The notes under the pieces are model-generated. The model did not search any database. It was not told where the DNA came from and worked only from the letters and a program-made list of their open reading frames with translations. The translations under genes were made by a program, and so were the position numbers. From Alphaproteobacteria bacterium (GTDB lineage Bacteria; Pseudomonadota; Alphaproteobacteria; UBA9655): a stretch of 32,599 nt of DNA. The stretch's first letter is position 1. Every line of letters begins with the position of its first letter. This document shows, in pieces, positions 1 through 31,873 of this stretch. The DNA is taken from positions 1-32,599 of the forward strand of contig JACDGE010000021.1 of the NCBI GenBank assembly GCA_013815465.1, read 5' to 3'.

Positions 1-66
1 GGAGCACCCGTAGTTGCAGGAGCTCCATTAGCGGGAGCACCCGTAGTTGCAGGAGCTCCATTAGCG
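1..66 (+). repeat. Tandem 33-bp repeat, two identical copies
   Basis: Bases 1-33 and 34-66 are identical and encode GAPVVAGAPLA twice; a diverged partial third unit (GAPGAALPG) follows. The array starts at the window edge, so more copies may lie upstream. The 33-bp period keeps the reading frame, so copy-number change would alter protein length without frameshift. Confidence 0.95.
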
Positions 67-3000: not shown

Positions 3001-5844
3001 GAACACGCTGCAAGCGCTCTCGATAATTTTAGGAACACAGCAACTCCAGAAGAGCTAGCGCTATTACAGGCCTATGAGTTTGAACTGGCCCAGCCATCTA
3101 TGGATCAGAATACTGTACAGAAAATTTTCACCCGAATTACTAATGCTTTTCCAAATGGGGAAGCCATAGCGAATGCGCTCTTTAATGAATCTTTAGTTAA
3201 AAATTATGCAAGAGATGATCGGCAACAGTTAGAAGACAACTTCACAGCTGCATTCCCCCATCTTAATATAGCTGACTATGATGATGCAACTGTACATACA
3301 ATGTGGGAGAACCACTTTGCTGCTTTGCTCTCACCCAAAACTACAACAGTTAAATCTCCCTCCTGGATGATACCAACAGGAGCGCCAGCGGTTGCTCCCG
3401 CCGATATTACGCCTGCTGATGATCTGGGTAATTTGAACACCTTTGATAGGAATGAGTTAATATCGCTTATGGGGCATTACATGAGCAATGTTAAAACTCC
3501 TGATAAATTCACTGATGATCAACTGCGTGAATTTCTTGGTATAAGGCTTAATGCGCTCGTAAGCGGCGCAGGAACTGCAACGGTAGCGTCAGCTGAATTA
3601 GACATTGACACTGCAGATTTAGAGACACTAAAGCAAGCTATTGATGTTGCTCAGGGGACAATGTATTCCCTAGATGAACTAAATCTCTTAGATGAGGCTC
3701 AAATACGTGACATTGCAGCTGATATGCGCGCTACAGGCACCTATTTTGCGGCGGTACCTATTGCAGACACTACAGCTTTACCACCAGCTGAATTAGACAT
3801 TGATACTGCAGATTTAGAGACACTAAAGCAAGCTATTGATGTTGCTCAGGGGACAATGTATTCCTTAGATGAACTGAATCTCTTAGATGAGGCTCAAATA
3901 CGTGACATTGCAGCTGATATGCGCGCTACAGGCACCTATTTTCCTGCAGGAGCAACTATCCCTTCACCCGCACCTGAATTAGACATCGATACGGCAGTTT
4001 TAGAGACACTAAAGCAAGCTATTGCTGGCGCTCAAGGGACGATTTACTCCTTAGATGAACTTGATATCTTAGATGAGAATCAAATACGTGATATTGCAGC
4101 TGATATGCGCGATGCAGGTACCTATTTTTCTGCAGGAGCAATTGGAGAAACGACAGCTTCACCTGCAGCAACTACAGTCACGCCTACACCTGCTTTCGAT
4201 CTCGACACCGTAGATCTAGATACATTAAAGCGGGTTATAAATGATATTAATCCAGATATCCTAGATGGCTCTGAAGATGAGAACATGGTACACCTGCTTG
4301 CGAAGACAATCCCTGATATACAGAGTAAAATTACAGCCGCTAGAGCTGCACCTGTCAAAGTTTCTGATGGACTACCTGATGTCAAGAAAGCGCCTGTCTC
4401 TGCATTGGAGAATTTAAGTGCAACCTTGGCGTGGGCTCTTAGGCAACCTCCTGTTTCCCAATTTGAATCACTAGATGCCTTGCAAAAATGGGGTAAGACT
4501 AACGTTGACAGATTTGCCGCATCTCAGCCTTTGCTTGCCCAGTTTAATGATGAATTTGAAAGATACTATACTGAGGGTAATGCAGAAAAAAAAGCAGAAA
4601 TTGCAGATGATCTACGACTAGCACGCAATGTCATAGAAAAGAAATTTGGCGTTAATGCAGCATTTGAAATTTTCAATAACGATCTCCTCATGGAACTGCC
4701 AGGTAAGTCTCCAGAGGAACAAAAATCTTACATTCATCGTCATTGGGATGAGCTTTGGAACGAGTATGGACAAGAGATTCTAAATAAAGCTACATCCTCT
4801 CAGATGGTCAGAAAAATGGTTGAACAAGTTGACAAGATCTTTGGAACTAACACAGGGAACAGGTTGTTAAAGGCTAGGATCGCAGGAAATCCAGAGGAAT
4901 ATGAAGCGCTTTGGGCCGAGTATGGGCAGAAAATAATGAATCCCTCTACGCCCCTGGGAAATGCTCAAGATCTTGTTAAAGAAGTGGATAATCTCTTTGG
5001 CCCCGACACAGGAGTGGAATTGTTGAAAGCCCGTATCGCGGGTGAAGGGAATCCGGAGGCTCAATCCCTCTGGGACGATTATAGGCAGAAAATAATGAAT
5101 CCATCCATAGATCTGCGAGAGGCTCAAGATTTTGTTAAGGAAGTGGATAATATTTTTGGTTCCGGCTCTGGAAATGTATTTTTGCAAGCTCGTAGTCAAG
5201 AAGAAGATAAACTTTCAGGGGCAGGATTAAAAAATAGTGTTAATGCTCTCTCACCTTTAGAGGAAGATAAAACACCACAAATTACGATAACACCATCGCC
5301 CACAACTACCAACCCAAGTATTAGTCCTGTTATTTCCCCTAAGGAACCCGAAAAACCAGTAGATGTTTATATAACAGGAGATATAACAGCCGAAGGTGCG
5401 GATCTTCTTAAAGAATTAGTAAGCGACCTTAAGACTGCTACAACTAATGAAGAGCGAGAAGGTCTCATTTATGCAATTGAAACGATGTATAGCGGGACTA
5501 AAGTACTTCTTGGTAAATATGAAGCGGGCGGGGATAAGTTCGTTTACAATATTGAGCAGACAAATAAAGTAAACCAAGAGATGATAAGTCGAACTGAAAA
5601 ATCAGGACAAACCCCAGCACAGCTTGCTCCACCATCTATTTTGGTGGATGTGAATGTCTTGAACTTGATTGGCTATAATAAGGCCGCCTTGGAACGAAAA
5701 GGTGAGTCTACCATAGAGTCAAAAGGGAAGGCAAAAGGGAAGGCAAAACAAGTCGTCATGACAAACTCACCAACAGAAGCGACGAAAAAGAAGAAAAGTG
5801 CGAAAAAACTACCCCTGAGGGGTTCGGACAAAGAGAGGGATTAA
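1..5844 (+). CDS. Giant internally repetitive protein, function unknown (5' end outside window)
   Basis: The frame is open from base 1 to the TAA at 5842-5844, at least 1947 codons; a GTG at 94 is only the first start-like codon inside the window, so the gene is 5'-partial. I recognise no catalytic domain. The protein is a chain of repeat families, residues counted from base 1. Residues 1-22 are two identical GAPVVAGAPLA units. A box containing GEEVVNLTNFSKNLFKEF lies at about 110-144, 177-211 and 374-408. A box ending in FTGKMEIPDL plus FGAL lies at 410-492 and 525-608. A 52-residue unit containing ETLKQAI and IRDIAADMR lies at 1198-1249, 1263-1314 and 1325-1376, with a degenerate fourth copy. 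A 52-53-residue unit (EYGQKIMNP, VKEVDNLFG) starts at about 1585, 1637 and 1690. The last ~45 residues are Lys-rich. No membrane span or beta-barrel end is evident in the visible part. A secreted or surface protein in a host-associated bacterium is a guess; the N-terminus would decide. Confidence 0.85.
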   Translation, partial: GAPVVAGAPLAGAPVVAGAPLAGAPGAALPGVVAVVGAPLIAEPVEPKIEQRLPFAKQIKPLNKSAEKRFEKSNLPRKKPMPDLQRTGKVPPAAGQFLTGSTIPFQVVQPIIDLGEEVVNLTNFSKNLFKEFVQEVRLNFGPLQIETMATQSKRTVDLVEPLQIGLLETSELIQKRPIVDLGEEVVNLTNFSKNLFKEFAQNVRLNFGPLQETRTETVDLVSPLQFETKEREITQAQNLTGAGKAKLQPGFLSAPAAPDTKGNLLAQAREFADAMDALKKTLKFQTQAPKVIADSKALTAQAPLIAEPVEPKIEQRLPFAKQIKPLNKPAEKRSEKPDLPRKKPLPNLQTTGKVPPAAGQFLTGSTVPFQVVQPIVDLGEEVVNLTNFSKNLFKEFTQKVRLNFPPLHGVTSETINMKENLGVTLSERTIYPDLIQDLPLPKRLQGSPLAAKRGAQPVQLDFDYPLATDFTGKMEIPDLDIFTPFFGALRDLQDDRKEPMSDRQIFEKPPLTPEKVELIQPLHVVTSETIHLIEQLKVEFSEMTIFPDEVINLPMPKKLQPSPLAGKQGSAATNLDFDYPLATEFTGKMEIPDLTFVPAPIFGALKDLNLTERNLPMGGSEYFPEPAMKGAEKQVPLPRDNDMQKVGGKLLWTLAPTGMTAKVPAAGGEPLKVEAKETILHQLLKTAKKMTSALKGISSVLENDLDEREKQDQNEKALIAAGRAGTLQYTSPPIRPSFIDLPELSTSLAPTGAPELTDAFKKVSKAATENFVVKKTEPIKGQPLPLIMPEEAAETVDTPSLSRAPKVAGSPFLTQPIEAPGATTIAESASLTPAPKVVPGAVLGTPLQAPDAALIADPTEEMRTLIENYQGALRDNVYNQPRYAKKGGMPDKIKNSKLMTDDMTTYSADEVWAQATKVSKNALVQKRVKEFLGVTDLTGYSDHEILQRATEALDAQTNKIVDRKKALFDRDFNFAQGKMAQPMDLSLNLREDEYGINLGQEHAASALDNFRNTATPEELALLQAYEFELAQPSMDQNTVQKIFTRITNAFPNGEAIANALFNESLVKNYARDDRQQLEDNFTAAFPHLNIADYDDATVHTMWENHFAALLSPKTTTVKSPSWMIPTGAPAVAPADITPADDLGNLNTFDRNELISLMGHYMSNVKTPDKFTDDQLREFLGIRLNALVSGAGTATVASAELDIDTADLETLKQAIDVAQGTMYSLDELNLLDEAQIRDIAADMRATGTYFAAVPIADTTALPPAELDIDTADLETLKQAIDVAQGTMYSLDELNLLDEAQIRDIAADMRATGTYFPAGATIPSPAPELDIDTAVLETLKQAIAGAQGTIYSLDELDILDENQIRDIAADMRDAGTYFSAGAIGETTASPAATTVTPTPAFDLDTVDLDTLKRVINDINPDILDGSEDENMVHLLAKTIPDIQSKITAARAAPVKVSDGLPDVKKAPVSALENLSATLAWALRQPPVSQFESLDALQKWGKTNVDRFAASQPLLAQFNDEFERYYTEGNAEKKAEIADDLRLARNVIEKKFGVNAAFEIFNNDLLMELPGKSPEEQKSYIHRHWDELWNEYGQEILNKATSSQMVRKMVEQVDKIFGTNTGNRLLKARIAGNPEEYEALWAEYGQKIMNPSTPLGNAQDLVKEVDNLFGPDTGVELLKARIAGEGNPEAQSLWDDYRQKIMNPSIDLREAQDFVKEVDNIFGSGSGNVFLQARSQEEDKLSGAGLKNSVNALSPLEEDKTPQITITPSPTTTNPSISPVISPKEPEKPVDVYITGDITAEGADLLKELVSDLKTATTNEEREGLIYAIETMYSGTKVLLGKYEAGGDKFVYNIEQTNKVNQEMISRTEKSGQTPAQLAPPSILVDVNVLNLIGYNKAALERKGESTIESKGKAKGKAKQVVMTNSPTEATKKKKSAKKLPLRGSDKERD
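111..1224 (+). repeat. Direct duplication of ~320 bp inside the giant gene (111-432 and 903-1224)
   Basis: The stretch beginning GCTCCCCTTATCGCAGAACC recurs 792 bp (264 codons) downstream with few substitutions. It covers the IEQRLPFAKQIKPLNK segment, the FLTGST segment and one copy of the GEEVVNLTNF box. A third copy of the box alone lies at 529-633. The offset is a multiple of three, so the frame is kept. Confidence 0.9.
1228..1824 (+). repeat. Diverged duplication of ~83 codons inside the giant gene
   Basis: Copies at 1228-1476 and 1573-1824 share VTSETI, the L-P-x-P-K-x-L-Q-x-SPLA segment, LDFDYPLAT, FTGKMEIPDL and FGALxDL. They differ at many other positions, so this is an older duplication than the one at 111-1224. 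Confidence 0.85.
3592..4128 (+). repeat. Three 156-bp repeats encoding a 52-residue unit
   Basis: Copies are at 3592-3747, 3787-3942 and 3973-4128. The first two are almost identical in DNA, the third has drifted, and 4192-4340 may be a degenerate fourth unit. Each unit contains D-ID-TA-LETLKQAI, then YSLDEL, then QIRDIAADMR and GTYF, and reads as two or three short helices. Units are separated by variable Ala/Pro/Thr linkers. Confidence 0.9.
4753..5196 (+). repeat. Three C-terminal ~52-codon repeats
   Basis: Units start at about 4753, 4909 and 5068, spaced 156 and 159 bp. Each has L-W-x-x-Y-x-Q-x-I, then a helix ending V-x-x-VD-x-IFG or VDNLFG, then LLKARIAG or a relative. The last unit ends at about 5196, before a Pro/Thr-rich linker. 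Confidence 0.85.
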
Positions 5845-15179: not shown

Positions 15180-15220
15180 GGGTGCACCAGTGATTTTTGG
15201 AGAAGTACTCATTACTACGA

Positions 15221-15384
15221 GCGTCATCCCCGCGAAGGCGGGGACCCAGGATGAATGAGGAAGATTTTTTAACTCCATTATCAACCGTATCATTTATCTT
15301 TAATCCACTTATCATTTTTGCCCTCTCTTAAACGTCTTCTAATCTCATATTATCTCTGGGTCCCCGCCTTCGCGGGGATGAAGC
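15221..15384. repeat. Palindromic element in the nuoG/nuoH gap
   Basis: Arms at 15221-15249 and 15356-15384 are inverted copies of a 29-bp sequence with core CCCCGCGAAGGCGGGGACCC, differing by about two bases. They enclose 106 bp of AT-rich DNA that does not match the interior of the 139-bp copies elsewhere in the operon. The right arm lies inside the nuoG reading frame; the left arm lies just before the nuoH start. Confidence 0.88.
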
Positions 15385-17432
15385 ACGTGGGGGGCGCCCC
15401 CCAAAATTTCTCGTGTACACTTTGCCATAGTAATGGAGTGGCGAGAAATAGGATCGGTCATGTAAAAATTCTTAATCCCTGATTCGAAAGGATCGGAAGA
15501 CACAACACCCACAGAGGAAAATGGGGTCCAAGGAGCTCGTTGAACAATGTCTAGCTCCTCAAAAAGCGGGTTCACGTCAACGAGCCGTTCGCGTACTTCT
15601 TCCAGTGTATTGTATGGCAATATAAACCCTAACTTTTCAGATAGCGCACGAATAATTTTCCAATCTTCCTTTGCTTCACCGGGAGGTGAGACAGCCTTTA
15701 AACTGCGTTGTACGCGCCCTTCCACATTGACATAGGTGCCCGATTTTTCTGTATAAGCTGCCCCTGGCAAAACAATATCTGCAGCCGTTGCCCCGCGATC
15801 ACCATGGTGACCTTGATAAATGATGAAGGCGTTCTTCAATGCCTCCATATCAAGCTCATCTGCGCCTAAGAGATAAACGGCTTCAATGTGTTTGCGAGAA
15901 ATAGCATCACTTATCTCTTTGACACCATGCCCACCGGGGCCAGGTAAAAAACCTAGATCGAGCCCACCCACCCGACTCGCAGCTGTGTGTAATATATTAA
16001 ATCCATTCCAGTCATCATAAATAAGACCATATTTGTCAGCAATCTGATACATAACGTTGAGAAGGGCAGGGCCGTCCCTACGACTTATGGCATTTTGGCC
16101 TAAAATTATCATGGGGAATTGAGCCGCCTTCAGTGCGGCAGAAACCGGATGCTTTCCTTTGAGAATTCTCTCAAGAATTAAGGGGTCATTCCCTAGATCG
16201 TCAACTGGATAGCCGAGATCATGATCGCATCCAAGACGAACCACGGGCAGCCCTGTTGCCAGATAATTTTTACGAATACGTGCATTAATCAAAGGCGCTT
16301 CCCAACGGGGGTTTGTCCCAATCAGTAGACAAAAATCAGCCTTCTCAATCCCTTCGATGGTGGTATTAAATAGATAACTGCAGCGGGGACCATCCCCTAC
16401 CACAACTCCATCCTGACGACAATCCATATGAGGAGAGCCTATGGCAGTCATCAAATCTTTCAAAGCAACCATCGCCTCCAAATCAACCATATCTCCCGAA
16501 ATAGCTGCAATATGATCACCGGGAATGTGTTGCAGTCGATCCACAATCAGCGCGAAGGCTTCATCCCAGCTTACAGGCTTAAGGCGCCCCTTGTTATCAC
16601 GTGCATAGGGTTGGTCAAGGCGTTGATACTTCAATCCATCGTATGCAAACCGGGTTTTGTCTGAAATCCAACCTTCGTTTATTTCGTCATTCCGGCGGGG
16701 CAGAATGCGCATGACTTCCCGCCCTCGGCTATCAATACGAATGGAGCTCCCCACTGCATCGAATACATCCACAGAAAGGGTCCTGGACAATTCCCACGAA
16801 CGTCCTCGAAAATTATAGGGTTTCGAGGTAAGGGCGCCTACGGGACAAATATCGATCATATTTCCTGAAAGCTCGGATCTAATAGCATTTTCAATATAAG
16901 TTCCAATTTCCATATCTTCGCCCCGGCCAAAAGCTCCCAATTCCGGGGCGCCAGCAATTTCAGTCGCGAAACGAATGCATCGAGTGCATTGGATACAACG
17001 GTTCATGGCCGTTTCGATGAGAGGGCCGAATTCCTTATCGGGAACTGCCCGCTTGTTCAAGTTAAAGCGACTCCCATCACTTCCATAGGCCATGGTAATG
17101 TCTTGAAGATCACACTCTCCACCTTGATCACAGATAGGGCAGTCCAGAGGATGGTTGATCAATAAAAATTCTAACACCCCTTGGCGAGCTTTTTTTACCA
17201 TGGGTGTATGGGTACGAATGACCATTCCCTCGGACACAGGCATGGCGCAGCTGGCAATAGGTTTTGGACTTTTATCCATCTCTACCAGGCACATCCGGCA
17301 ATTACCCGCAATGGAAAGCTTTGGATGATAGCAAAAGACAGGAATTTCAATCCCCAGTAACTCTGCCGCTTGCAGAACGGTCACTCCATCTTCAACTTCA
17401 ATTTCTTGATTATCAATGATTAACTTTGGCAT
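15345..17432 (-). CDS. nuoG: NADH-quinone oxidoreductase subunit G, with repeat-encoded C-terminus
   Basis: This 695-residue subunit of the NADH-dehydrogenase module carries a chain of iron-sulfur clusters. The N-terminal 2Fe-2S motif is visible (PVFCYHPKLSIAGNCRMCLVEM), then CPICDQGGECDLQD with the upstream His-containing region, then the cysteine set RCIQCTRCIRF. A molybdopterin-oxidoreductase-like domain follows. The start at 17432 (MPKLIIDN) is preceded by AGGG nine bases upstream and clears the nuoF stop at 17437; an ATG at 17471 overlaps nuoF. The last residues, [11 protein letters not shown], are encoded by the right arm of the palindromic element, and the stop lies 11 bp beyond that arm. 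The native stop appears lost or moved. Confidence 0.95.
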   Translation of the reverse strand: MPKLIIDNQEIEVEDGVTVLQAAELLGIEIPVFCYHPKLSIAGNCRMCLVEMDKSPKPIASCAMPVSEGMVIRTHTPMVKKARQGVLEFLLINHPLDCPICDQGGECDLQDITMAYGSDGSRFNLNKRAVPDKEFGPLIETAMNRCIQCTRCIRFATEIAGAPELGAFGRGEDMEIGTYIENAIRSELSGNMIDICPVGALTSKPYNFRGRSWELSRTLSVDVFDAVGSSIRIDSRGREVMRILPRRNDEINEGWISDKTRFAYDGLKYQRLDQPYARDNKGRLKPVSWDEAFALIVDRLQHIPGDHIAAISGDMVDLEAMVALKDLMTAIGSPHMDCRQDGVVVGDGPRCSYLFNTTIEGIEKADFCLLIGTNPRWEAPLINARIRKNYLATGLPVVRLGCDHDLGYPVDDLGNDPLILERILKGKHPVSAALKAAQFPMIILGQNAISRRDGPALLNVMYQIADKYGLIYDDWNGFNILHTAASRVGGLDLGFLPGPGGHGVKEISDAISRKHIEAVYLLGADELDMEALKNAFIIYQGHHGDRGATAADIVLPGAAYTEKSGTYVNVEGRVQRSLKAVSPPGEAKEDWKIIRALSEKLGFILPYNTLEEVRERLVDVNPLFEELDIVQRAPWTPFSSVGVVSSDPFESGIKNFYMTDPISRHSITMAKCTREILGGAPHVLHPREGGDPEII

Positions 17433-18711: not shown

Positions 18712-18729
18712 TGTGAATCTCCCCCATGA

Positions 18730-18868
18730 GCGTCATCGCCGCGAAGGCGGGGACCCAGGACGAACATAAATTCTGGGTTCAATACATCTTTTTCGTTTTT
18801 AAACTTCTTCTTAAAGAATTTTTCCATATCAAGCGTCTCCTGGCTCCCCGCCTTCGCGGGGATGACGC
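18730..18868 (+). repeat. 139-bp palindromic element, copy 1 (nuoE/nuoF gap)
   Basis: 29-bp terminal arms at 18730-18758 and 18840-18868 are inverted copies with two or three mismatches. The 81-bp interior aligns with the reverse complement of the interior at 21500-21580, about three quarters identical by hand count. Translated on the plus strand the element reads [11 protein letters not shown]…PRLRGDDA without stop. Its right arm is inside the nuoE frame. Confidence 0.92.
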
Positions 18869-19443
18869 TCGTGGGGTGGTTCTAAGGGAGCGCTGCCCTG
18901 ACGCCCTACGGCCGAACCAGGTTTTATGTCCTTACCTCCCTTCAAATCTTCCAGAAGGTTCAGAAAGGTTTCTTTAGTTAAATCCTCAAAATAATCGTCA
19001 TTTATCTGAACAGCCGGGGCATTTACGCAAGCTCCAATGCATTCCACCTCGTTTACGGTAAACAAGCCATCTTCCGTCGTTTCACCCTCGGCAATGCCCA
19101 AGTGTTTCTTACACACTCGTTTAAGGTCTTCACTGCCCCTCAGCATACACGGTGTGGTGCCACAGATTTGGACATGATACTGACCTACAGGCGTTAAATT
19201 AAACATGGTGTAAAAGGTTGCGACTTCATAGCCTCTGACGAGAGAAACGCCAAGAATTTCCGTCACTTTTTCGATGGCGCTCGGCGGAAGCCAGCCCCCA
19301 CATTGGCGCTGAGCAAGGTCAAAGAGGGGCAGAATGGCACTTGCCTGTCTCCCTTCCGGGTAGCGCTTTAAGATTAGCTCGATTTTCGCTTTGTTTTCTT
19401 TAGAAAACTCGAAGATTTTAAAGTCTTTTGGGGGGTTAGACAC
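18829..19443 (-). CDS. nuoE: NADH-quinone oxidoreductase subunit E (2Fe-2S), with repeat-encoded C-terminus
   Basis: This 24-kDa-type subunit holds the 2Fe-2S cluster N1a beside NuoF. Visible are RQASAILPLFDLAQRQCGGW, CGTTPCMLRG and ECIGACVNAPAVQIND, giving the C-x4-C and C-x3-C ligand pairs. The GTG at 19443 (204 residues) is preferred because GAGAGG lies eight bases before it. An ATG at 19485 (MWESPWKQYREEIT) would add 14 residues and has no ribosome site; it lies beside the next palindromic element. The family-like tail ends near GRQGSAPLEPP. The remaining HPREGGEPGDA is encoded by the right arm of the 139-bp element, with the stop 11 bp past the arm. Confidence 0.93.
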   Translation of the reverse strand: MSNPPKDFKIFEFSKENKAKIELILKRYPEGRQASAILPLFDLAQRQCGGWLPPSAIEKVTEILGVSLVRGYEVATFYTMFNLTPVGQYHVQICGTTPCMLRGSEDLKRVCKKHLGIAEGETTEDGLFTVNEVECIGACVNAPAVQINDDYFEDLTKETFLNLLEDLKGGKDIKPGSAVGRQGSAPLEPPHERHPREGGEPGDA

Positions 19444-19492
19444 GGTGATTTCCTCTCGGTATTGCTTCCAAGGACTCTCCCACATTCCCCAC

Positions 19493-19576
19493 GAGCGTCA
19501 CTCCCGAGCAGGCGGGAACCCAGAAAAAAATTTGCTGCTTGGCTCCTGGGTTCCCGCCTGCGCGGGAATGACGCTC
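19493..19576. repeat. Short palindromic element in the nuoD/nuoE gap
   Basis: 31-bp arms at 19493-19523 and 19546-19576 are inverted copies with two mismatches and a 22-bp spacer, so the transcript can fold into a long hairpin. The core (CCCGCGCAGGCGGGAACCC) is a variant of that in the other copies. It has no long interior, so it may be a different subfamily or a deletion form. Confidence 0.88.
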
Positions 19577-19656
19577 ACAGTTGGCACGTGAAGGGGTTTT
19601 GTTGAGCTCCCAGCAATCCTTCTGACCACAGAACACAGAACGCTGACTACTGCTTC

Positions 19657-21456: not shown

Positions 21457-21470
21457 ATACACCCTCCATT

Positions 21471-21609
21471 GCGTCATCCCCGCGAAGGCGGGGACCCAGA
21501 AGATGCTGAATATGGCAAAGTTCTGTAAAAAAAGATTTAGAAGCGAAATAAATGTATTGAGGCCGGAATTTATGCTCGTCCTGGGTCCCCGCCTTCGCGG
21601 AGATGACGC
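21471..21609 (-). repeat. 139-bp palindromic element, copy 2 (nuoB/nuoC gap)
   Basis: 29-bp arms at 21471-21499 and 21581-21609 are inverted copies differing at one base. Total length (139 bp) and interior length (81 bp) equal those of the copy at 18730-18868, and the interior matches when reverse-complemented. On the minus strand it reads [11 protein letters not shown]…PRLRGDDA without stop, the same peptide frame as copy 1. It ends 14 bp before the nuoC start and leaves the nuoC ribosome site intact. Confidence 0.93.
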
Positions 21610-21663
21610 CAGTTGTGGGAGATATTTTCCTAAAAAGTTGAGAATTGCACATATTCATTCCAC

Positions 21664-22948: not shown

Positions 22949-23383
22949 ATGTCGAACCGCCCCTCTAAACCTCAGGGCACCCCCGGATTATTCCCTTATT
23001 TAACCGTTCGCAGTGCCGAAAAAGCCATCGATTTTTATAAAGAGGCTTTTGGCTTTCGTTTAAGTTCAGAGCCCGCAAAAGATGAGCAGGGCCGCATCCA
23101 ACATGCTGAAATGAAATTTGGTGATGATGTCATTGTGATGTTTGCAGCCGAAGGTGCTTTCGGATCTCCTCGTAAAGCGCCCATTTCCCAAGGAATGCCG
23201 CCTTCTCTTGTGATTTATATCTATTGTGACGATGTGGATGCTCTGCATTCACGAGCTGTTGATCAAGGCGCCAATTCAACTATCGCGCCCAATGATGGAT
23301 TCTGGGGAGATCGCTTTTGTTGTCTAGTTGACCCAGACGGTCATGAATGGATGTTTGCCACAAATGTCGCTGATCATAAATAA
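22949..23383 (+). CDS. VOC-superfamily (glyoxalase/PhnB-like) protein
   Basis: This 144-residue single-domain protein begins with a PhnB-like strand-helix unit (LFPYLTVRSAEKAIDFYKEA) and ends GDRFCCLVDPDGHEWMFAT, the usual C-terminal VOC pattern with the metal-type residues H and E in this region. VOC proteins are metal-dependent lyases, isomerases, dioxygenases or resistance proteins; the sequence does not tell which. AGGAG seven bases before the ATG is a good ribosome site. The cupin gene follows after 13 bp and the ligase after another 33 bp, so the three probably form one operon. Confidence 0.88.
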   Translation: MSNRPSKPQGTPGLFPYLTVRSAEKAIDFYKEAFGFRLSSEPAKDEQGRIQHAEMKFGDDVIVMFAAEGAFGSPRKAPISQGMPPSLVIYIYCDDVDALHSRAVDQGANSTIAPNDGFWGDRFCCLVDPDGHEWMFATNVADHK

Positions 23384-23396
23384 GGGGAGCATAAGG

Positions 23397-23822
23397 ATGC
23401 CAGAACATAAAAAGGTAACACCTGATCCCACGAAAAAAGTTTCTATCGTCTCCCGTAATGATATTCCTGCGCTTGTCGTAGAGAGGGATGGTAAACAGGT
23501 TGATTTAGGTTTACGTATTTTTCATTCGAATGAGATTCTCGAAAATCTTCTTCAATCCCCGTCAGAATTTTCAATTGCTTGGGCCAGCTTGAAAGCGGGT
23601 GAAATTGTTCCAGCGCATACCCATGATACTTTAACGCTTCTGATTGTTTATCAGGGCTCTGGCCGGTTGCTTCCTGAAGGGACGCAGGAATTCGTTGCAG
23701 GGGATTGTATTGTGATTCCGCCCTATTGTGAGTCAGGAATTGTAGGAGGTGAACCTGATGGGTGTCACGCTATTTCTATTGAAGTGGGGAAAGACAGACT
23801 TCAAATGTCTAAGTATGCATAG
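23397..23822 (+). CDS. Single-domain cupin protein
   Basis: This 141-residue protein has a cupin barrel: motif 1 lies around GEIVPAHTHDTLTLLIVYQG with two His, and motif 2 around FVAGDCIVIPPYCESGI, where the usual motif-2 His is not evident. The start at 23397 has GGGGAG nine bases upstream and follows the VOC stop by 13 bp; an in-frame ATG at 23328 lies inside the VOC gene. Its layout closely matches the N-terminal domain of the cupin-diiron fusion at 25733: SR-x-x-IP near the N-terminus, AW-x-x-L before motif 1, QG-x-G, AGD-x-I-x-x-PPY and an A-x-S strand. The two look like paralogs. It may bind a metal and a ligand or act as a sensor; its substrate is unknown. Confidence 0.85.
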   Translation: MPEHKKVTPDPTKKVSIVSRNDIPALVVERDGKQVDLGLRIFHSNEILENLLQSPSEFSIAWASLKAGEIVPAHTHDTLTLLIVYQGSGRLLPEGTQEFVAGDCIVIPPYCESGIVGGEPDGCHAISIEVGKDRLQMSKYA

Positions 23823-23855
23823 AAACATGTAAGAAGTAATAGGGGAGGGGGCTAT

Positions 23856-25562
23856 ATGGCTTCTCGTGGCTTGCAAATCAATCATATTGGTGATGTAGAA
23901 GAAATTGAAAAAATACCCTTAGAGGCCCGGTTTAAAGAGCAGACAGCTTACGATATTATTGAAGGCGCGGCAAAGAAATGGGCCGAAAGAAATGCACTTA
24001 CCTTCCTACCCTCTGGATCTCCTTTAGCTAAACCGGTCACTTTTACTTATAAGCAGATCTTTGATCGGGTAAATCAAACGGCAAATCTCCTTCTTTCAAT
24101 TGGTGTTAAATCAGGTGATGCCATTTCATATATTTTACCAAGTATTCCAGAAAATTATTTTTTATTCTTTTCTTCACAAGCCGTTGGAATTGCAAATCCT
24201 ATTAGCTTTAGTTTACCTCCAGAACAAATAGCGGAACTCTTGCGGACAGCTGGGAGTAAGATTTTATTCACCACAGGATCTAAGACAAATCCTCAATTGT
24301 GGGACAACCTTCTAACTGTACGCAATCTTTATCCAGGGTTAAAAAAAATTATTGTGCTGGAAGATGAAACTGACCTGCGCCAGAGTATTTATAACTTTTA
24401 TGACCTTCTTTCAACTCAATCATCCTCACCTCTATTTCAAAAGAAGAAAATTAATTCTAAGGCCATTTGCTCCTATTTTCATACGAGCGGCACAATGGGG
24501 CCTCCTAAACTTGTGCAACATACCCACCATGGAGTTGTATATATAGCGTGGGTCGCGGGTATTTTTGCAAAATATGAGAGAACAAACTCGGTTATTTTGT
24601 CTGGGCTTCCCATGTTCCATGTTGCGGCGCCAGTAGTAGAAGCGCTTTCTGCCTTTTTCTACGGTGCATCAATGGTGGTGATGAGCCCTTTAGGGTGGTC
24701 GGATCCTTCGGTCATTCCTCACTTTTGGAAAATTGTTGAAAAATATCACGGCACTTCGATGGTAGCTGTGCCCCCTATTTACAAAGCATTATTAAAAGTC
24801 CCCCTCAATGGTGCGGATACCAGCAGTTTATATTCTACTATTTCTGGTAACGTGGCAATAAGTGAAGAAGACTTCAATCAATTTAAGGCTCTCACAAATG
24901 TAAGCATCGCAACTTTATGGGGGCAGACGGAAGCCCTCGTAGGATGTTTTAACTTTTCCTCTACCTCAAAAAGTAAGAACTTTGGATCTGCGGGCATCCG
25001 CTTACCCTATGAACAGATTAAAATTGTAAAATTAGATAAAAATGGGAATGTTTTAAGAAACTGTTTGCCTATGGAAGAGGGGGTTTTATGTATAAAAGGT
25101 CCTAATGTTAACGGATATAAAGTACAGGCATTAAATAAAACAGCTTTTTCCCCGGCCGGTTGGTTTAACACGGGAGATTGGGCATATCAAAACGCGGAAG
25201 GATATATCTGGATATTAGGCCGTCAAGCAGATTTTATTCAGTACAATGGAAAATATATATCCTTGTTAGAAATTGAAACAACGTTGCATCAACACCCCAA
25301 AATAAAAAAAGCAGCAGCAATTAGTCTCTCAGATGAGAATCTAGATATTTTTGTAATGCTACATGAGGGAACTCATATGACTGTTGATGATGTTAATCAG
25401 TACATTAATGATTCACTTAAAGAAAAATATGGTCTCATTAAGATGGATATCGAGTTTCGTCATGAGCTGCCTTTAAATGGGATGGGGAAAGTTCTCAAAT
25501 ATATATTAAAAGAAGAGCTGCAAAGAAGAAAGATAAACTGGGGCAAGAGGCGCGAAGCTTAA
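23856..25562 (+). CDS. AMP-forming acyl-CoA synthetase/ligase (ANL superfamily)
   Basis: This 568-residue enzyme activates a carboxylic acid through an acyl-adenylate, most likely to a CoA thioester. The P-loop-like motif HTSGTMGPPK is at about 209, LWGQTEA at about 354 and GWFNTGDWAYQ with EGYIWILGR at about 436-460. The C-terminal NGMGKVLKY holds the catalytic-type lysine. The order and length match a full two-domain ligase. The substrate cannot be read; an N-terminal PSGSPLAKPVTFTYKQIFDR resembles long-chain or aryl acyl-CoA ligases. A strong ribosome site (GGGGAGGGGG) precedes the ATG, 33 bp after the cupin. Neighbouring cupin, diiron and FadL-like genes suggest fatty or aryl acid metabolism. 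Confidence 0.88.
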   Translation: MASRGLQINHIGDVEEIEKIPLEARFKEQTAYDIIEGAAKKWAERNALTFLPSGSPLAKPVTFTYKQIFDRVNQTANLLLSIGVKSGDAISYILPSIPENYFLFFSSQAVGIANPISFSLPPEQIAELLRTAGSKILFTTGSKTNPQLWDNLLTVRNLYPGLKKIIVLEDETDLRQSIYNFYDLLSTQSSSPLFQKKKINSKAICSYFHTSGTMGPPKLVQHTHHGVVYIAWVAGIFAKYERTNSVILSGLPMFHVAAPVVEALSAFFYGASMVVMSPLGWSDPSVIPHFWKIVEKYHGTSMVAVPPIYKALLKVPLNGADTSSLYSTISGNVAISEEDFNQFKALTNVSIATLWGQTEALVGCFNFSSTSKSKNFGSAGIRLPYEQIKIVKLDKNGNVLRNCLPMEEGVLCIKGPNVNGYKVQALNKTAFSPAGWFNTGDWAYQNAEGYIWILGRQADFIQYNGKYISLLEIETTLHQHPKIKKAAAISLSDENLDIFVMLHEGTHMTVDDVNQYINDSLKEKYGLIKMDIEFRHELPLNGMGKVLKYILKEELQRRKINWGKRREA

Positions 25563-25650
25563 ATTATGGGGGGTGGAGTATTTTGGAGCGAGACAGGGAA
25601 GAATTTTATTAATAAACTGATAACATTAGATATTTTAATTAAATATTTTG

Positions 25651-25665
25651 TTTACAAATTGTAAA
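25651..25665. promoter_or_regulatory. 15-bp palindrome upstream of the cupin-diiron gene, candidate operator
   Basis: TTTACAA-A-TTGTAAA is a perfect 7-bp inverted repeat around one base, in the AT-rich 158-bp spacer between the ligase and the cupin-diiron gene. The symmetry and position fit a dimeric repressor site. No regulator gene lies beside it, and AT-rich DNA makes such palindromes less rare. Confidence 0.4.
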
Positions 25666-25732
25666 TAATAGTGTCTTCTATAGGTATAAGCGGTTTTAGC
25701 TTAAAAAAAAAAATAAAAAAATGGGAAAAACC

Positions 25733-26863
25733 ATGAAAACACAATCAAAACATTTGAATTCTAATAAGATGCAAGTCATTTCTCGATCCTCAATACCCGT
25801 CATTTCCTCTATAGAAATGGATGGAATTGCTCACGAGCTTGGAAAGCTCTTCGATTTTCGCAAGCACCCAGATTTGGCCTCCTTTATTCCTGAAAATGCC
25901 CGTCCTTCATTCGCCTGGACGAACCTAGAGCTCCAAGAAGAGCTCGCTGCCCATGAACATCCAACGCCAAGTATGATTATTATCTGCCAAGGAGAAGGAG
26001 AAGTGTTTGGAGATTGTGAGCAAAAAATATGCGCTGGGGATGTCATTATTGTTCCTCCTTACCACCAGCATGGCTTTCGGACGCAAAACAAGGACGGCTT
26101 TTGGGCTTTGTCTGTACAGTTTGAAGGTCCAGGTCTTTACGAAAACACGAAAGCCCCACGGGTTGAATTTGTTGAAGAGAGAGAAAAGCTCTCTAAAACT
26201 GCATTTGATTCACTTCTCAAAGACCAAGAACAGTTTGTTGAAAAATTTAAAAAACATCCTTTGATTCAGCTTGTACAATCAATGTCTCTAGAAGATAAGA
26301 AAATGCAAGAAAGGTTACTTGAAGCTCTAAACATTTGGGGAAATTGGTTTCAAAGAATTATTTATATGCGTGCAGCAACAGGATCAAGTGGAGTGTATCA
26401 AACTCTGGCAGAGCAGCACATTCAAGAAGAAGTTGGACATAATACTTCTTTGCTTAAGATGAGAGGGAACAAGGAAATTTCTTTAAATGACCCTATTTTA
26501 GAAGCAACAGCGAGCTGGTTTTTTGAAAAGATGCTTTCCTTAACGGTTGAGGAAAAAACCGTCCTTATCCATTTTGTAGTGGAAGCGGCGGGCGATGTTT
26601 TTCATACGGAAGCCCTTCATCTCTTCCACCATACGCCCCACTTTCAAACTCATGTAGAGCACGATGAAGATCATTTTGGAATAGGTTGTCGTGTTTTAGA
26701 AGCTGCAGAACACCTTGAGATTGAACAGTTAAGATTAATTTTGAGCCGGGGATGGGAGATGATGGATCTTTTGCTCTCACGTATTGCCTATTTTACCCAC
26801 CATGGGGGCATCGAAAAAGAAACTGATACAAGATACGATATGGCATACGCAAAAGCTTCTTAG
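25733..26863 (+). CDS. Cupin fused to a heme-oxygenase-like diiron oxidase/oxygenase domain
   Basis: This 376-residue protein has an N-terminal cupin (residues ~10-135; AAHEHPTPSMIIICQGEGEV and CAGDVIIVPPYHQHGF) and an all-helical C-terminal domain (~150-370). The C-terminal domain has an acid/His pattern typical of heme-oxygenase-like diiron enzymes (relatives: CADD, UndA). The visible elements are EEVGH (E233, H236), VEAAGDVFH (E284, H291) and HVEHDEDH (H307, D311, H314; H-x3-D-x2-H). Such enzymes use iron and O2 to decarboxylate, hydroxylate or cleave substrates. The ATG at 25733 is preferred because GGGA precedes it; an ATG at 25721 adds four residues and has no ribosome site. The cupin domain is a paralog of the neighbouring stand-alone cupin. 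Substrate unknown; the diiron call is from motifs only. Confidence 0.8.
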   Translation: MKTQSKHLNSNKMQVISRSSIPVISSIEMDGIAHELGKLFDFRKHPDLASFIPENARPSFAWTNLELQEELAAHEHPTPSMIIICQGEGEVFGDCEQKICAGDVIIVPPYHQHGFRTQNKDGFWALSVQFEGPGLYENTKAPRVEFVEEREKLSKTAFDSLLKDQEQFVEKFKKHPLIQLVQSMSLEDKKMQERLLEALNIWGNWFQRIIYMRAATGSSGVYQTLAEQHIQEEVGHNTSLLKMRGNKEISLNDPILEATASWFFEKMLSLTVEEKTVLIHFVVEAAGDVFHTEALHLFHHTPHFQTHVEHDEDHFGIGCRVLEAAEHLEIEQLRLILSRGWEMMDLLLSRIAYFTHHGGIEKETDTRYDMAYAKAS

Positions 26864-27264: not shown

Positions 27265-28509
27265 ATGAATAAGATAAAAAACGGCTCACCAAACGCCCTT
27301 CGTCTTCTTCTTATAAGCGCTCTAAGCACTGTAAACTCGACCTTATGCTCTCCCCCCCTTATGGCAAATGGTGCTCTACCCTATTGTATGGGCGCAAAAA
27401 TGTGCCAGATGGGTGGCGCAGGCGTGGCCATTCCTTTAGATTCAACCAGCGGAAATGTTAATCCCGCGCTTATGGCCAATGTGGGAAGAGATGCGGCTCT
27501 TGATCCTCTTGTTGTCTTTCAAAAGGAACACGTTGACACATCCCGCACTCAACTCACGAAGGGAACTCCTCTTCCTCCCCGTACCGGCCCCGTAACGAAT
27601 AGAATTAAAGCCTACGGCGCAGCCTATTCAGGTTTCAATTACGACATAAATCCGGAATGGTCCCTTGGAATTTCTACAGCAGGGGGAGGAAATAATGCGA
27701 GATACAACAGATCTATTGTATCCCCTGGCCTGTCTGCCCCTAGAAAGCTTGAGAGCATGGCTGCACTTGCTTCCCAAATACTCGCTTATAAACCGGGCTG
27801 TGATCAAGCGTATGGTCTAAGCCTGATTGTGGGTTATTTACAAATGAAAAACAATTTGACCCAATTTCCGAGCGGAATCGTAACAAAAGGAAACGATAGA
27901 ACGGATCATGTTTGGGGGATTGGTGGCAGAATTGGTGGACAATGGAATGTAAGCCAATTTCTATCCCTAGGCGCTGCTGCTTCCACGCCTACCTTTTTCC
28001 AGAAACTAAAAAAATATAGTGACGTTATAAAGCACTCTCCTCGATTACCCGCAATTGTCACGGGAGGAATAGCTTTGCATGTCCGGAATGATACGGACGT
28101 TCTTTTTGATCTAGAGGGTTTATTTTGGAAGGCATCTCCTTTTACAGGGAAAAAACCCCCGATTGGGCAAGGCTGGAGGAACGCTCTCGTCTTCAAATTT
28201 GGTGTTCAGCATAAAGTAATCCCCGACGTACAAGTTCGTCTTGGTTATAACTACGGTAGAACGCCTGTTCGAAAGAAATACGTTTTATTTAACGCATTAG
28301 ATGAGGTTATTACGATAAATGAACATGTTCTCTCAACTGGTTTTACATATGATTTAAATCCAGCAATGTCTTTTGATTTAGGCGGCGCCATTTTATTTAA
28401 TAAGAAAATTACAGATAATGGAAAAGGCCCTGCTGGACTTGCTGCTAAAGGTTTAAGGGTGGAAGCCAGAGCATTAATGGTTAGCTTAGGATTTAATTTA
28501 AAATATTAA
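27265..28509 (+). CDS. Outer-membrane transport protein, OmpP1/FadL type
   Basis: This 414-residue protein has an N-terminal hydrophobic export signal (LRLLLISALSTVNST, cleavage probably near LMANG). Next comes the FadL-family segment GGAGVAIPLDSTSGNVNPAL, which corresponds to the plug region. Alternating strands follow to a C-terminal strand ending SLGFNLKY with a terminal aromatic, as needed for beta-barrel insertion. FadL relatives pass long-chain fatty acids and other hydrophobic compounds through the outer membrane. It has its own -35/-10 and AGGG ribosome site. Substrate is unknown, but the ligase and diiron genes just upstream would fit import of a fatty or aromatic acid. Confidence 0.75.
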   Translation: MNKIKNGSPNALRLLLISALSTVNSTLCSPPLMANGALPYCMGAKMCQMGGAGVAIPLDSTSGNVNPALMANVGRDAALDPLVVFQKEHVDTSRTQLTKGTPLPPRTGPVTNRIKAYGAAYSGFNYDINPEWSLGISTAGGGNNARYNRSIVSPGLSAPRKLESMAALASQILAYKPGCDQAYGLSLIVGYLQMKNNLTQFPSGIVTKGNDRTDHVWGIGGRIGGQWNVSQFLSLGAAASTPTFFQKLKKYSDVIKHSPRLPAIVTGGIALHVRNDTDVLFDLEGLFWKASPFTGKKPPIGQGWRNALVFKFGVQHKVIPDVQVRLGYNYGRTPVRKKYVLFNALDEVITINEHVLSTGFTYDLNPAMSFDLGGAILFNKKITDNGKGPAGLAAKGLRVEARALMVSLGFNLKY

Positions 28510-28603: not shown

Positions 28604-30658
28604 ATGATAGAGAGAATTGATATTTTTATGAAACGACTAAACCCGCTTTCTCTTATAGTAATTTTTTCTATTGCTGTACTTTTTTTTGTTTTTATATTTT
28701 TTTATATGCCGCTTGATGTAATTGCGCAAAATTTTTATGATAAAAGCTTCTTTTCACTTTCAGATCCTTTATTTCCTTCTTATTTTAGAATATTAATTTT
28801 TATAACAACACTTTTGTTAATATTATTTCTCTATAGAAATAGAATCATCTTAAAAAAAGAAATAAACCTTCGAAGAGAAATTGAGAGAGAAAGTTTTGAA
28901 AAAGGTAACAGATTGGAAGAATCTTTAGCGCTCAGCCATGCAACCCTAGAAGCAACAGCGGATGGAATTTTAGTGGTAGATAGGGATAGGCGGATTGTTG
29001 GCCATAATCAAAAATTTTCCAAGATGTGGAAGATTCCCTCTAAAATTTTGCGTCCTGGAAACGATGAAAAAGTCGCAGGATCTGTTATGAAACAACTTAA
29101 AGATCCTCCTAAATTTATTGAAAGCCTAGAACGACTCTATAATGCTGCGCCTGGTGAAGAGTATAAAGATGAGATTGAATTCAAGGATGGAAGGATTTTT
29201 GAACGTTATACAATGCCCCAAATCCGAGACAAGGAAATTATTGGACGCGTCTTTAGTTTCCGAGATGTAACTCAGCAAAAAACAATGGAAGAACAATTGC
29301 TATACCAAGCTACCCATGATTCCCTTACGCTGCTTCCAAATCGTGTCATTCTTCAAGATCGTATTCAACAGGAACTTCGTTATGCTAAACGAACAAATAA
29401 AATGGCAACTCTACTATTTTTTGATCTTGATGGTTTTAAACTTATCAATGATAGCCTTGGCCACAATTTTGGAGATATTCTCTTGCAGTCTGTAGCCAGA
29501 CGGTTAGAACGTTGCGTTAGAGAACAAGATACGATCGCCCGATGGGGAGGCGATGAATTTGTTATTCTGCTAACCTCTCTTTCTCATGAAAATGATGTTA
29601 TTCCCATTATTAATAAATGTCTTGAGGCAGTGGGAGAACCTTTTGTGCTTGATAAACATACAGTCAGCATTACAAGCAGCGTTGGAGTGAGTATCCTTCC
29701 TAAAGATGGTATAACGCCTTCTACTCTTCTAAAAAATGCTGATAGTGCAATGTATGACGCTAAATCTTCCGGTCGAAATAATTATAAATTTTACTCTGCT
29801 GATATGAATAAAAACATAGAAAAAAAACTAGGATTAATAAACGATTTACACGAAGCTATTGAAGATCAACAGCTTTTATTATATTATCAACCTTTGGTTG
29901 ATCTTAAAAATGGAGCTATTGTTGGAGCCGAAGCTCTGATTCGCTGGTATCATCCCTTGCGGGGATTAGTTTTTCCTCAAGAATTTATTCCCATTGCGGA
30001 AGAAACAGGACTGATTATCGCTATCGGAGAGTGGGTTTTACGTACCGCCTGCAAACAAAGTATACGTTGGCGAGAAGAAAATTTTTCCCCTCTTTTCATG
30101 TCAATTAATTTATCAGGACAGCAATTTAGACAAAGAGATATTGCAGAGCTTGTTGGGAATGTTCTGAACGAGACACAAATGGATCCAAAATATTTAAGTT
30201 TAGAGCTGACAGAAAGTGTGATTATGGAAAACTCTGAAGTTTATCTTAATTATATGTTAGAACTAAAAAAGCTTGGGGTCAGTTTGGTCATTGATGACTT
30301 TGGAACAGGCTATTCAAGTTTAAGCTATCTGAAGCGATTTCCGGTGGACAAGATTAAGATTGATCAATCATTTGTTTCTGGTCTTCCAAAAGACAGTGAT
30401 GATGCGGCAATTGTTCGCGCAATCCTTGCTATGGCGGATCAGCTTAACTTAGAAGTTGTCGCCGAGGGCATTGAAACAAAAGAACAGCTTGATTTCTTAT
30501 GTAAGTATTCTTGTAATATAGGCCAAGGCTATCTTTTTAGTAAGCCAATTCCTTCTGAAGATTTTGTTAATCTATTGAAAAAAAATAAGTTTAACGGTCT
30601 CATGGAGAAAAAAGATAAAAGTACTCAATCCACTCATGAACTAACGATGAGACCATAA
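28604..30658 (+). CDS. Membrane PAS-GGDEF-EAL cyclic-di-GMP protein
   Basis: This 684-residue protein has two membrane spans (~15-36 and ~60-78) and a short coiled region. A PAS domain follows (~110-225; ATLEATADGILVVDRDRRIV), then GGDEF (~235-400) and EAL (~415-670). The diguanylate cyclase motif is intact (RWGGDEF, ~315), with an inhibitory I-site RxxD (REQD, 306-309) five residues before it. The phosphodiesterase motif is also intact (GAEALIRW at ~443, DDFGTGYSS at ~564). Either activity, or a switch between them set by the PAS domain, is possible. Start ATG 28604 has no ribosome site; ATG 28628 is the alternative and begins closer to the first span. Confidence 0.92.
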   Translation: MIERIDIFMKRLNPLSLIVIFSIAVLFFVFIFFYMPLDVIAQNFYDKSFFSLSDPLFPSYFRILIFITTLLLILFLYRNRIILKKEINLRREIERESFEKGNRLEESLALSHATLEATADGILVVDRDRRIVGHNQKFSKMWKIPSKILRPGNDEKVAGSVMKQLKDPPKFIESLERLYNAAPGEEYKDEIEFKDGRIFERYTMPQIRDKEIIGRVFSFRDVTQQKTMEEQLLYQATHDSLTLLPNRVILQDRIQQELRYAKRTNKMATLLFFDLDGFKLINDSLGHNFGDILLQSVARRLERCVREQDTIARWGGDEFVILLTSLSHENDVIPIINKCLEAVGEPFVLDKHTVSITSSVGVSILPKDGITPSTLLKNADSAMYDAKSSGRNNYKFYSADMNKNIEKKLGLINDLHEAIEDQQLLLYYQPLVDLKNGAIVGAEALIRWYHPLRGLVFPQEFIPIAEETGLIIAIGEWVLRTACKQSIRWREENFSPLFMSINLSGQQFRQRDIAELVGNVLNETQMDPKYLSLELTESVIMENSEVYLNYMLELKKLGVSLVIDDFGTGYSSLSYLKRFPVDKIKIDQSFVSGLPKDSDDAAIVRAILAMADQLNLEVVAEGIETKEQLDFLCKYSCNIGQGYLFSKPIPSEDFVNLLKKNKFNGLMEKKDKSTQSTHELTMRP

Positions 30659-30760: not shown

Positions 30761-30818
30761 TCTCGTAAGTCCTCAAGAGCTTTTGGGCATGGAGCCTACC
30801 CCAAAAAAGGAGAATCAA

Positions 30819-31265
30819 GTGGTTGATTATAAAAATAAGCCGGATACTTATTATAAAAAAAATCTTTCTCCAGAGGCTTATAAAGTTTGCCGTGAGCAGG
30901 GAACGGAAAAGGCTTTTTCTGGAAAATATGATAAATTTTATGAGAAGGGAACCTACACGTGCGCCTGCTGTGGCGGGGATTATCCTATCTATAATTCAAA
31001 AGCTAAATTTGATTCAAAAACAGGATGGCCCAGTTTTTGGGAACCTATTGATCCGAGCCATATCGAACTGGTGCAAGATAATAGCCTCATCCATCAATTT
31101 CTAGGGGCCCGTACGGAGGTGCGTTGTGCCCGTTGTGGATCGCACTTGGGACATGTATTTGACGATGGCCCTCCCCCTACAGGAAAACGCTATTGTATGA
31201 ATTCCGTCGCCCTTCATTTTGTTGCTGAAGGACAAACGCCCACACGAACGTTTTCGGCAGAATAA
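30819..31265 (+). CDS. msrB: Peptide methionine-(R)-S-oxide reductase
   Basis: This 148-residue cytoplasmic protein reduces the R form of methionine sulfoxide. Two zinc-binding CxxC pairs are visible (C48-x2-C51 in CACC; C103-x2-C106 in CARC), as is the catalytic Cys126 in RYCMNSVAL. The segment SKTGWPSFWEP is a family hallmark. The GTG at 30819 is chosen because AAGGAG lies six bases upstream; an ATG at 30789 would add ten residues but has no ribosome site. msrA follows after 65 bp. The product lacks an export signal. Confidence 0.95.
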   Translation: MVDYKNKPDTYYKKNLSPEAYKVCREQGTEKAFSGKYDKFYEKGTYTCACCGGDYPIYNSKAKFDSKTGWPSFWEPIDPSHIELVQDNSLIHQFLGARTEVRCARCGSHLGHVFDDGPPPTGKRYCMNSVALHFVAEGQTPTRTFSAE

Positions 31266-31310
31266 GGAAAGGCATGAGGAAATTTTATCTTTCATTCCTT
31301 ATGTTTTTTT
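31262..31310 (+). terminator. Terminator or attenuator between msrB and msrA
   Basis: ATAAGGAA (31262-31269) and TTCCTTAT (31295-31302) pair over eight bases. The loop can pair further (TGAGG with CTTTCA, G-U included), and a run of seven T (31304-31310) follows. It overlaps the msrB stop. As msrA begins 20 bases after, readthrough or a promoter inside this spacer is needed to express msrA. Confidence 0.6.
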
Positions 31311-31330
31311 GATTTATGATTGGAGCCCCC

Positions 31331-31873
31331 ATGACAAATGCAGTTAAATCATCTTCTACAGAAATTGCCATTTTTTCAGGGGGATGTTTTTGGTGTGAGG
31401 AAGAAACTTTTATGGACCTTCCAGGGGTTATCTCTGTTTTTTCGGGTTACACGGGCGGTCATACGAAAAACCCTACCTATGAGCAAGTTTCTGGAGAAAA
31501 AACCGGCCATAAGGAAGCGGTTCAAATAACCTTTGATCCTTCCAAAATTACCTATGATCAATTGTTGGAAAAGTACTGGTATAACGTTGATCCTCTTAAT
31601 GCTAAAGGGCAATTTTGTGACATCGGTGATTCCTACAAGGCTTTTATTTTCTACACCACTCCTGCTCAACAAAAGCAAGCAGAGGCCTCTAAGGAAAAAA
31701 TAGAAGTTCAACTGAATGAGCCCGTGGCAGTTGAAATTCAAGCCGCTACACCCTTTTATCTAGCCGAAGACTATCATCAAAAATACGCTGAGAAAAACCC
31801 CATACGCTATAAATCCTACCGCGACAATTGCGGGCGGGATGAACGCCTGCAGGAGGTTTGGGGGAAGAAGTAA
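31331..31873 (+). CDS. msrA: Peptide methionine-(S)-S-oxide reductase
   Basis: This 180-residue protein reduces the S form of methionine sulfoxide. The catalytic motif GCFWCEEE has Cys19; GYTGG, GHKEAVQITFDP, AEDYHQKY and a late NCG segment are typical. The start at 31331 has GGAG five bases upstream; an ATG at 31316 adds five residues. msrB lies just before it, so both stereoisomers of methionine sulfoxide are covered. Confidence 0.95.
   Translation: MTNAVKSSSTEIAIFSGGCFWCEEETFMDLPGVISVFSGYTGGHTKNPTYEQVSGEKTGHKEAVQITFDPSKITYDQLLEKYWYNVDPLNAKGQFCDIGDSYKAFIFYTTPAQQKQAEASKEKIEVQLNEPVAVEIQAATPFYLAEDYHQKYAEKNPIRYKSYRDNCGRDERLQEVWGKK

Follow-up and report, generated by a model that had tools for sequence, protein, structure and literature searches.

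Which reaction does a cupin fused to a predicted metal-binding oxygenase-type domain carry out in an alphaproteobacterium, and which of its neighbouring genes work with it? The question arises at positions 22949-26863 of contig JACDGE010000021.1, within the stretch of 32,599 nucleotides that was analysed as a whole (the window). The contig belongs to a 2.26-Mb alphaproteobacterial genome (G000; 99.75% complete, 151 contigs). An initial annotation had placed four adjacent same-strand genes here, and all four open reading frames (ORFs) were found, encoding a VOC protein, a free cupin, a ligase and a fusion of a cupin with a heme-oxygenase-like diiron/dimetal domain (HDO). The N-terminal cupin of the fusion is referred to as cupin A and the free cupin as cupin B.

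The explanation we favour, at about even probability, is that the locus constitutes a small oxidative biosynthesis cassette, in which the two-metal fusion would oxidise an amino-acid-like substrate, the cupin would convert the product, and the ligase would activate an acid.

Fold and metal ligands of the fusion protein

The longest ORF of the fusion begins at 25721, and related proteins favour the ATG at 25733; the residue numbering of the initial annotation likewise starts there. Pfam gave a weak cupin match at the N-terminus and no call for the C-terminal domain. PF14518 did not match the HDO domain of the window, and the best relative, G263, reached 20.8 bits against a cut-off of 28.9. Since Pfam was silent there, the C-terminal diiron assignment needed independent testing. 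Two AlphaFold2 models of the fusion were built from small alignments of 4 (model 1) and 12 sequences (model 2), with mean predicted local distance difference test scores (pLDDT) of 66.5 and 78.0, respectively. Both comprised a beta barrel at approximately residues 11-134 and a helical bundle at approximately residues 150-357.

In model 2, the cupin barrel reached a Z of 12.0 to structure 5uqp. The structural ranking of the helical bundle in this model was headed by AetD (Z 19.3, root-mean-square deviation of 2.7, 200 residues), followed by CADD (17.1), TenA (at most 16.7) and UndA (16.2); SznF was not among the best 50 structural matches listed, which excludes nothing. In model 1, AetD (17.5), TenA (17.3) and HamA (17.0) were tied, and SznF scored 12.2. 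AetD thus headed the ranking for either model, by a clear margin in model 2 and within a tie in model 1, which counts in favour of an amino-acid-oxidising cassette. According to the models, the C-terminal domain has a seven-helix, heme-oxygenase-like fold, with AetD as its nearest structural relative.

Residues H74, H76, H113, H229, E232, E233, H236, E284, H307, D311 and H314 were invariant in all five fusions compared, which come from an actinomycete and two orders of Alphaproteobacteria. The first three follow the catalytic cupin histidines of SznF, H407, H409 and H448 (PMC11705231). An alignment of nine diverged HDOs, AetD-type proteins included, demonstrated an invariant motif, H-x2-E-[ED]-x2-H ... 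E ... H-x3-[DE]-x2-H. Through an alignment of AetD with the HDO of a related genome, G001, the AetD ligands D76, H79, E140, H172, E176 and H179 map onto window residues E233, H236, E284, H307, D311 and H314, and AetD H72, which contacts a stray metal, maps onto H229 (AetD ligands from PMC10654658). The HDO ligand set of three histidines and three carboxylates is complete in the window fusion. In the proposed reading, the HDO domain would bind two irons and the cupin one metal.

The initial annotation had proposed a cupin fused to a diiron-type domain, a heme-oxygenase-like fold for the latter, and the six mapped residues as its iron ligands. The three-histidine barrel and the HDO bundle bear out the first, structure prediction agrees with the second, and every residue of the third proved both invariant and matched by an AetD ligand.

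Conservation of the cassette

Of 15 genomes from the genus, only G000, G001, G009 and G010 had an HDO gene, in one copy each and always at this locus. The ligase occurred in 5 of the 15, namely the same four and G003, whose contig stops about 20 bases past cupin B, so that the presence of the fusion there was not judged. The fusion, the free cupin and the ligase stand together in G000, G009 and G010, in the order free cupin - ligase - fusion in the window (170 bases separating the last two) and fusion - free cupin - ligase in the other two genomes. Between species, the ratio of nonsynonymous to synonymous substitutions (dN/dS) was 0.09-0.23 for these three genes by simple Nei-Gojobori counts, in which the synonymous sites of the more distant pairs were close to saturation. 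Such values indicate genes under selection rather than chance ORFs. An orthologous GGDEF/EAL gene lies near all four complete loci (28604-30658 in the window) and marks the cassette site.

The VOC gene has a clear glyoxalase domain (PF00903, 63.8 bits against a cut-off of 20.6). No match to it was found in the related loci of G001, G003, G009, G010, G123 and Embleya, and it was rejected as a pathway member. A gene for a FadL/OMPP1-type outer membrane protein lies just downstream of the fusion (27265-28509) and is shared with G001; it was likewise rejected, being absent from G003, G009 and G010 and present in genus members that lack the cassette. On these grounds, we define the unit as fusion, free cupin and ligase. 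The initial annotation had counted the VOC gene in the set and expected the genes to stay together in relatives; this held for three of the four (fusion, free cupin and ligase), leaving VOC as a mere neighbour.

The ligase carries a C-terminal domain match (PF13193, E 2.6e-5), and its closest NCBIfam model was the acyl-CoA synthetase PRK07529, at 455.8 bits against a cut-off of 632. The P-loop SYFHTSGTMGPPKL, the WGQTE and TGD motifs and the GMGK lysine are all conserved. By these sequence features, the 23856-25562 product is assigned to the ANL adenylate-forming ligases.

In G001, a small-genome alphaproteobacterium, the orthologue of cupin A is unfused (L012 5888-6364) and followed by cupin B and the ligase, and the HDO is encoded by a separate gene (L012 3491-4213). 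The fusion is therefore not universal for the cassette. The G001 HDO matched AetD over its full length (E 3e-6); as an orthologue of the fusion HDO it was rejected, because the two belong to different subfamilies. That one locus holds HDOs of two subfamilies, depending on the genome, next to the same cupins and ligase argues that the HDO reaction is a needed step rather than an accidental neighbour. Adjoining the G001 HDO gene is one for an aromatic prenyltransferase of the DMATS type (E 4e-23 against a tryptophan dimethylallyltransferase of solved structure; TIGR03429, E 3e-28), and the locus also contains two MFS transporters and two methyltransferases. Tryptophans are the substrates of AetD and SktA (PMC13108848), and the prenyltransferase hints at tryptophan as well, which makes an indole or amino acid our leading guess for the G001 substrate. 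By analogy, this guess might carry over to the window genome. The Trp_DMAT family was found in none of 385 genomes of the class, but the controls were also empty, so rarity is unproven; the same family search did find the G001 gene.

The G001 cluster (L012 / L030, G001:C1) looks biosynthetic, and its two ends are marked by an acetyl-CoA-synthetase-like and a FadL-type gene. A palindromic repeat of the CCTCTCCC...GGGAGAGG type lies between its cupin B and ligase genes (L012 6760-6950).

Overall, the cupin-HDO fusion is common to five genomes from two phyla. Among the 385 class genomes sampled, the only one beyond the window was G123, a member of another alphaproteobacterial order, whose fusion shares 34% identity. 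In this group (L027 8210-14425), the fusion is followed by genes for a lactate/malate-type dehydrogenase, a 763-amino-acid protein that neither Pfam nor NCBIfam matched, a membrane protein and a LysR regulator. A sample of 398 genomes drawn from the phylum yielded no additional fusion. G263 contained only an HDO, and G249 only a cupin, accompanied by an MFS transporter. In the actinomycete Embleya sp. NBC_00888 (NZ_CP108785.1), the same fusion (36% identity over 88%, E 1e-63) lies in an uncharacterised type II polyketide synthase (PKS)-like cluster. This cluster resembles the window locus in also having a ligase; its ligase, however, resembles benzoate-CoA ligases and is only a distant relative of the window enzyme. 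Also encoded there are four ketosynthase-like proteins, a thioester reductase, a PaaZ-like bifunctional aldehyde dehydrogenase-MaoC protein and a cytochrome P450. That partners vary between genomes suggests that the fusion is a portable two-metal oxidation step.

The Embleya cluster (L039 1-25000) also has an FAD enzyme, and an aminotransferase-like ORF lies further along. Standalone AetD-type HDOs with an H-x2-E-D-x2-H motif were observed on Streptomyces clavuligerus plasmid pSCL4 (L040 8001-8657) and a Calothrix sp. PCC 7716 plasmid (L041 7788-8537), where they are unannotated or annotated as hypothetical. Weaker matches occurred on many Piscirickettsia salmonis plasmids.

Other features of the window

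The coordinates of the four genes and of the domains and ligands of the fusion are collected in Table 1.

Table 1. Genes at the locus, with the domains and candidate metal ligands of the fusion protein (window positions).
Feature	Position	Strand	Evidence or remark
VOC/glyoxalase gene	22949..23383	+	PF00903, E 2.5e-17; upstream neighbour, judged outside the conserved set
Free cupin (cupin B), 141 amino acids	23397..23822	+	Cupin_2, weak, E 2.9e-4
Predicted AMP-forming acyl/aryl acid ligase (ANL superfamily), 568 amino acids	23856..25562	+	PF00501, E 2.2e-54
Cupin-HDO fusion, 376 amino acids from the conserved ATG	25733..26863	+	ORFs, homologue alignment, models
N-terminal cupin domain (cupin A), residues 1-143	25733..26161	+	Modelled beta barrel; cupin structures at Z 10-12
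C-terminal HDO domain (predicted), residues 145-376	26165..26860	+	Fold comparison of the model
Candidate cupin metal ligands H74 and H76 (H-E-H codons)	25952..25960	+	Invariant in five fusions; pattern as SznF H407/H409
Candidate third cupin metal ligand H113	26069..26071	+	Invariant; kept in G001 cupin A; matches SznF H448
HDO helix H229, E232, E233, H236 (H-x2-E-E-x2-H)	26417..26440	+	AetD H72/E75/D76/H79
Candidate HDO ligand E284	26582..26584	+	Invariant; AetD E140
HDO helix H307, D311, H314 (H-x3-D-x2-H)	26651..26674	+	AetD H172/E176/H179; SznF H311/D315/H318

Promoter and terminator scans of the window returned chance-level results only, and an Rfam scan gave no RNA match. A methionine sulfoxide reductase pair, MsrB-like and MsrA-like, named from sequence only, lies at 30783-31873 on the + strand. 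A GC-rich palindromic repeat (CGTCATCCCCGCGAAGGCGGGGACCCAG and its inverse) is present in four copies (15214-15393, 18722-18876, 19487-19582 and 21469-21617), in or beside the nuo gene region. Positions 1-5200 contain several families of long degenerate direct repeats with units of about 130-300 bases that are 75-94% alike; these are perhaps repeat-protein genes.

Candidate chemistry and alternative explanations

In the proposed oxidative cassette, the HDO domain would activate O2 at two irons and oxidise an amino-acid-like substrate, either by N-oxygenation or by oxidative C-C cleavage, as in AetD. The three-histidine cupin fused to it, with its single metal, would then convert the unstable intermediate in the manner of the SznF cupin. 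The ligase would turn a carboxylic acid, be it substrate, product or partner, into an acyl-adenylate or CoA ester, before or after the oxidation, and cupin B, with its altered metal site, may be a helper or a second-step enzyme. The end product would be a small-molecule natural product. AetD, a tryptophan-derived nitrile synthase, and SktA are among the closest known systems; AetD is the best fold match, and its ligands occupy equivalent positions, those of the H72/E75/D76/H79 helix among them. AetD differs in being a single-domain enzyme of the aetokthonotoxin pathway, whereas the window HDO carries a cupin and has no significant sequence match to it.

In favour of this proposal stand the AetD-like fold and its complete ligand set, the AetD homologue beside a DMATS gene in G001, the SznF-type cupin histidines, the linkage of the cassette genes and the purifying selection on them, and the biosynthetic-looking surroundings of the fusion in Embleya and G123. 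Several observations weigh against it. The fusion HDO matched no solved HDO structure by sequence, in either single-sequence or profile searches, and fold similarity by itself shows no function. In G001, the HDO gene lies on the strand opposite to the cupins and the ligase, and its product shares only about 13-16% identity with the fusion HDO, the subfamilies being different. No DMATS gene was found in the window genome, so the tryptophan hint is limited to G001. Finally, with polyketide-type surroundings in Embleya and no ligase beside the fusion in G123, the clusters may not all share one substrate.

Among more than 10,000 HDO sequences, reactions are known for only about a dozen, and of these SznF alone is joined to a cupin (PMC13108848); more than 400 clusters with SznF homologues have been counted (PMC11177257). 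SznF (StzF), the streptozotocin N-nitrosating enzyme, combines an HDO and a mononuclear cupin with three metal histidines in one protein and has the same H-x3-D-x2-H (PMC11705231), and its two-step logic is plausible for the window fusion also. Its chemistry offers the alternative that survives best, although we consider it unlikely: N-N bond formation, in which N-hydroxylation of a guanidine or amino acid by the HDO would be followed by rearrangement of the product at the cupin to an N-nitroso compound, diazeniumdiolate or hydrazine. The fragin cluster, in which the adjacent hamA (HDO) and hamB (cupin) genes overlap (PMC5878181), and the high rank of HamA in model 1 are in line with it. However, SznF is built as N-terminal dimerisation domain - HDO - cupin, whereas in the window the order of the two shared domains is reversed and the third is missing. 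Because this order was tested and found to differ, the fusion was not filed as SznF. SznF also fell well under AetD in model 1, the partner genes differ, and among the neighbours no enzyme of the arginine or N-methyl-arginine type was recognised. The fragin cluster shares with the window adjacent HDO and cupin genes and an adenylating enzyme, but HamA and HamB are separate proteins with the HDO gene first, and the nonribosomal peptide synthetase-type adenylation, AurF-type N-oxygenase and cyclase genes are absent from the window cassette. Moreover, valdiazen of the fragin pathway is made without need of HamB (PMC5878181).

Quite unlikely, in our estimate, is a purely regulatory or substrate-binding role for the fused cupin, with the HDO alone catalytic and the free cupin likewise a binding protein. 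Many cupins are sensors, the Pfam cupin matches are weak, and AraC_binding also scores. Cupin B, whose paralogy to the fused cupin the initial annotation had noticed correctly (33% identity, E 1.7e-15), keeps the H-x-H of cupin motif 1 and lacks the third histidine in motif 2 (PPYCESG), which would suit such a role. Cupin A, on the other hand, has kept its full triad of metal histidines in the fusions of both phyla without exception, as well as in its unfused form in G001, and a barrel that only binds would have no need of it. Orthologues of cupin B occur in G001, G003, G009 and G010; in the alignment, 5 of 5 cupin B orthologues have C-E-[SA]-G where cupin A has H-G, and the B proteins form their own clade in the tree (support 1.0). 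That two such cupins are kept side by side suggests a division of labour between them.

A UndA-like route appears improbable; here the FadL-type porin would take up fatty acids for activation by the ligase and subsequent decarboxylation or desaturation by the HDO. Fatty-acyl-CoA synthetases are among the relatives of the ligase, the FadL/OMPP1 gene lies next to the cassette in the window and is also present in G001, and UndA itself matches the fold. Nevertheless, the distribution of FadL does not follow that of the cassette, AetD is the better fold match, and UndA needs neither a ligase nor a cupin, binding the free acid at its iron. UndA and CADD had been named in the initial annotation as enzymes of this class; they do share the HDO fold and ligand pattern, but AetD is closer. 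Neither carries a cupin, UndA acts on free fatty acids, and CADD acts on itself. The closer similarity to AetD indicates an amino-acid-like rather than a fatty-acid substrate. A chance assembly of unrelated genes, to which the differing gene order in G009 and G010, the 170-base gap and the partly shared descent of position among genus relatives could point, is very improbable, given that the genes stay together despite rearrangement, that G001 has an HDO of another subfamily at the same locus, and that presence and absence of the cassette genes coincide within the genus.

The initial annotation had found the cupin-diiron arrangement unfamiliar. SznF and HamA/HamB are precedents for the pairing, and what stands is the cupin-first order with an AetD-like HDO: in the open-access literature, subscription papers being outside the scope of the search, we found no publication on a cupin-first or AetD-like HDO-cupin fusion. 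It is possible, at somewhat less than even probability, that the cupin-first fusions of Alphaproteobacteria and Actinomycetota form a separate undescribed family of AetD-like two-metal oxygenases, with a new coupled diiron-then-cupin reaction, serving uncharacterised natural-product pathways that include the apparently indole-prenylating G001 cluster.

A second, differently built HDO-cupin enzyme in two phyla would make it possible to test whether such pairings share a single chemistry or follow a general two-step strategy. The G001 locus, with the same cupins and ligase, a free-standing AetD-type HDO and a prenyltransferase, provides a natural comparison.

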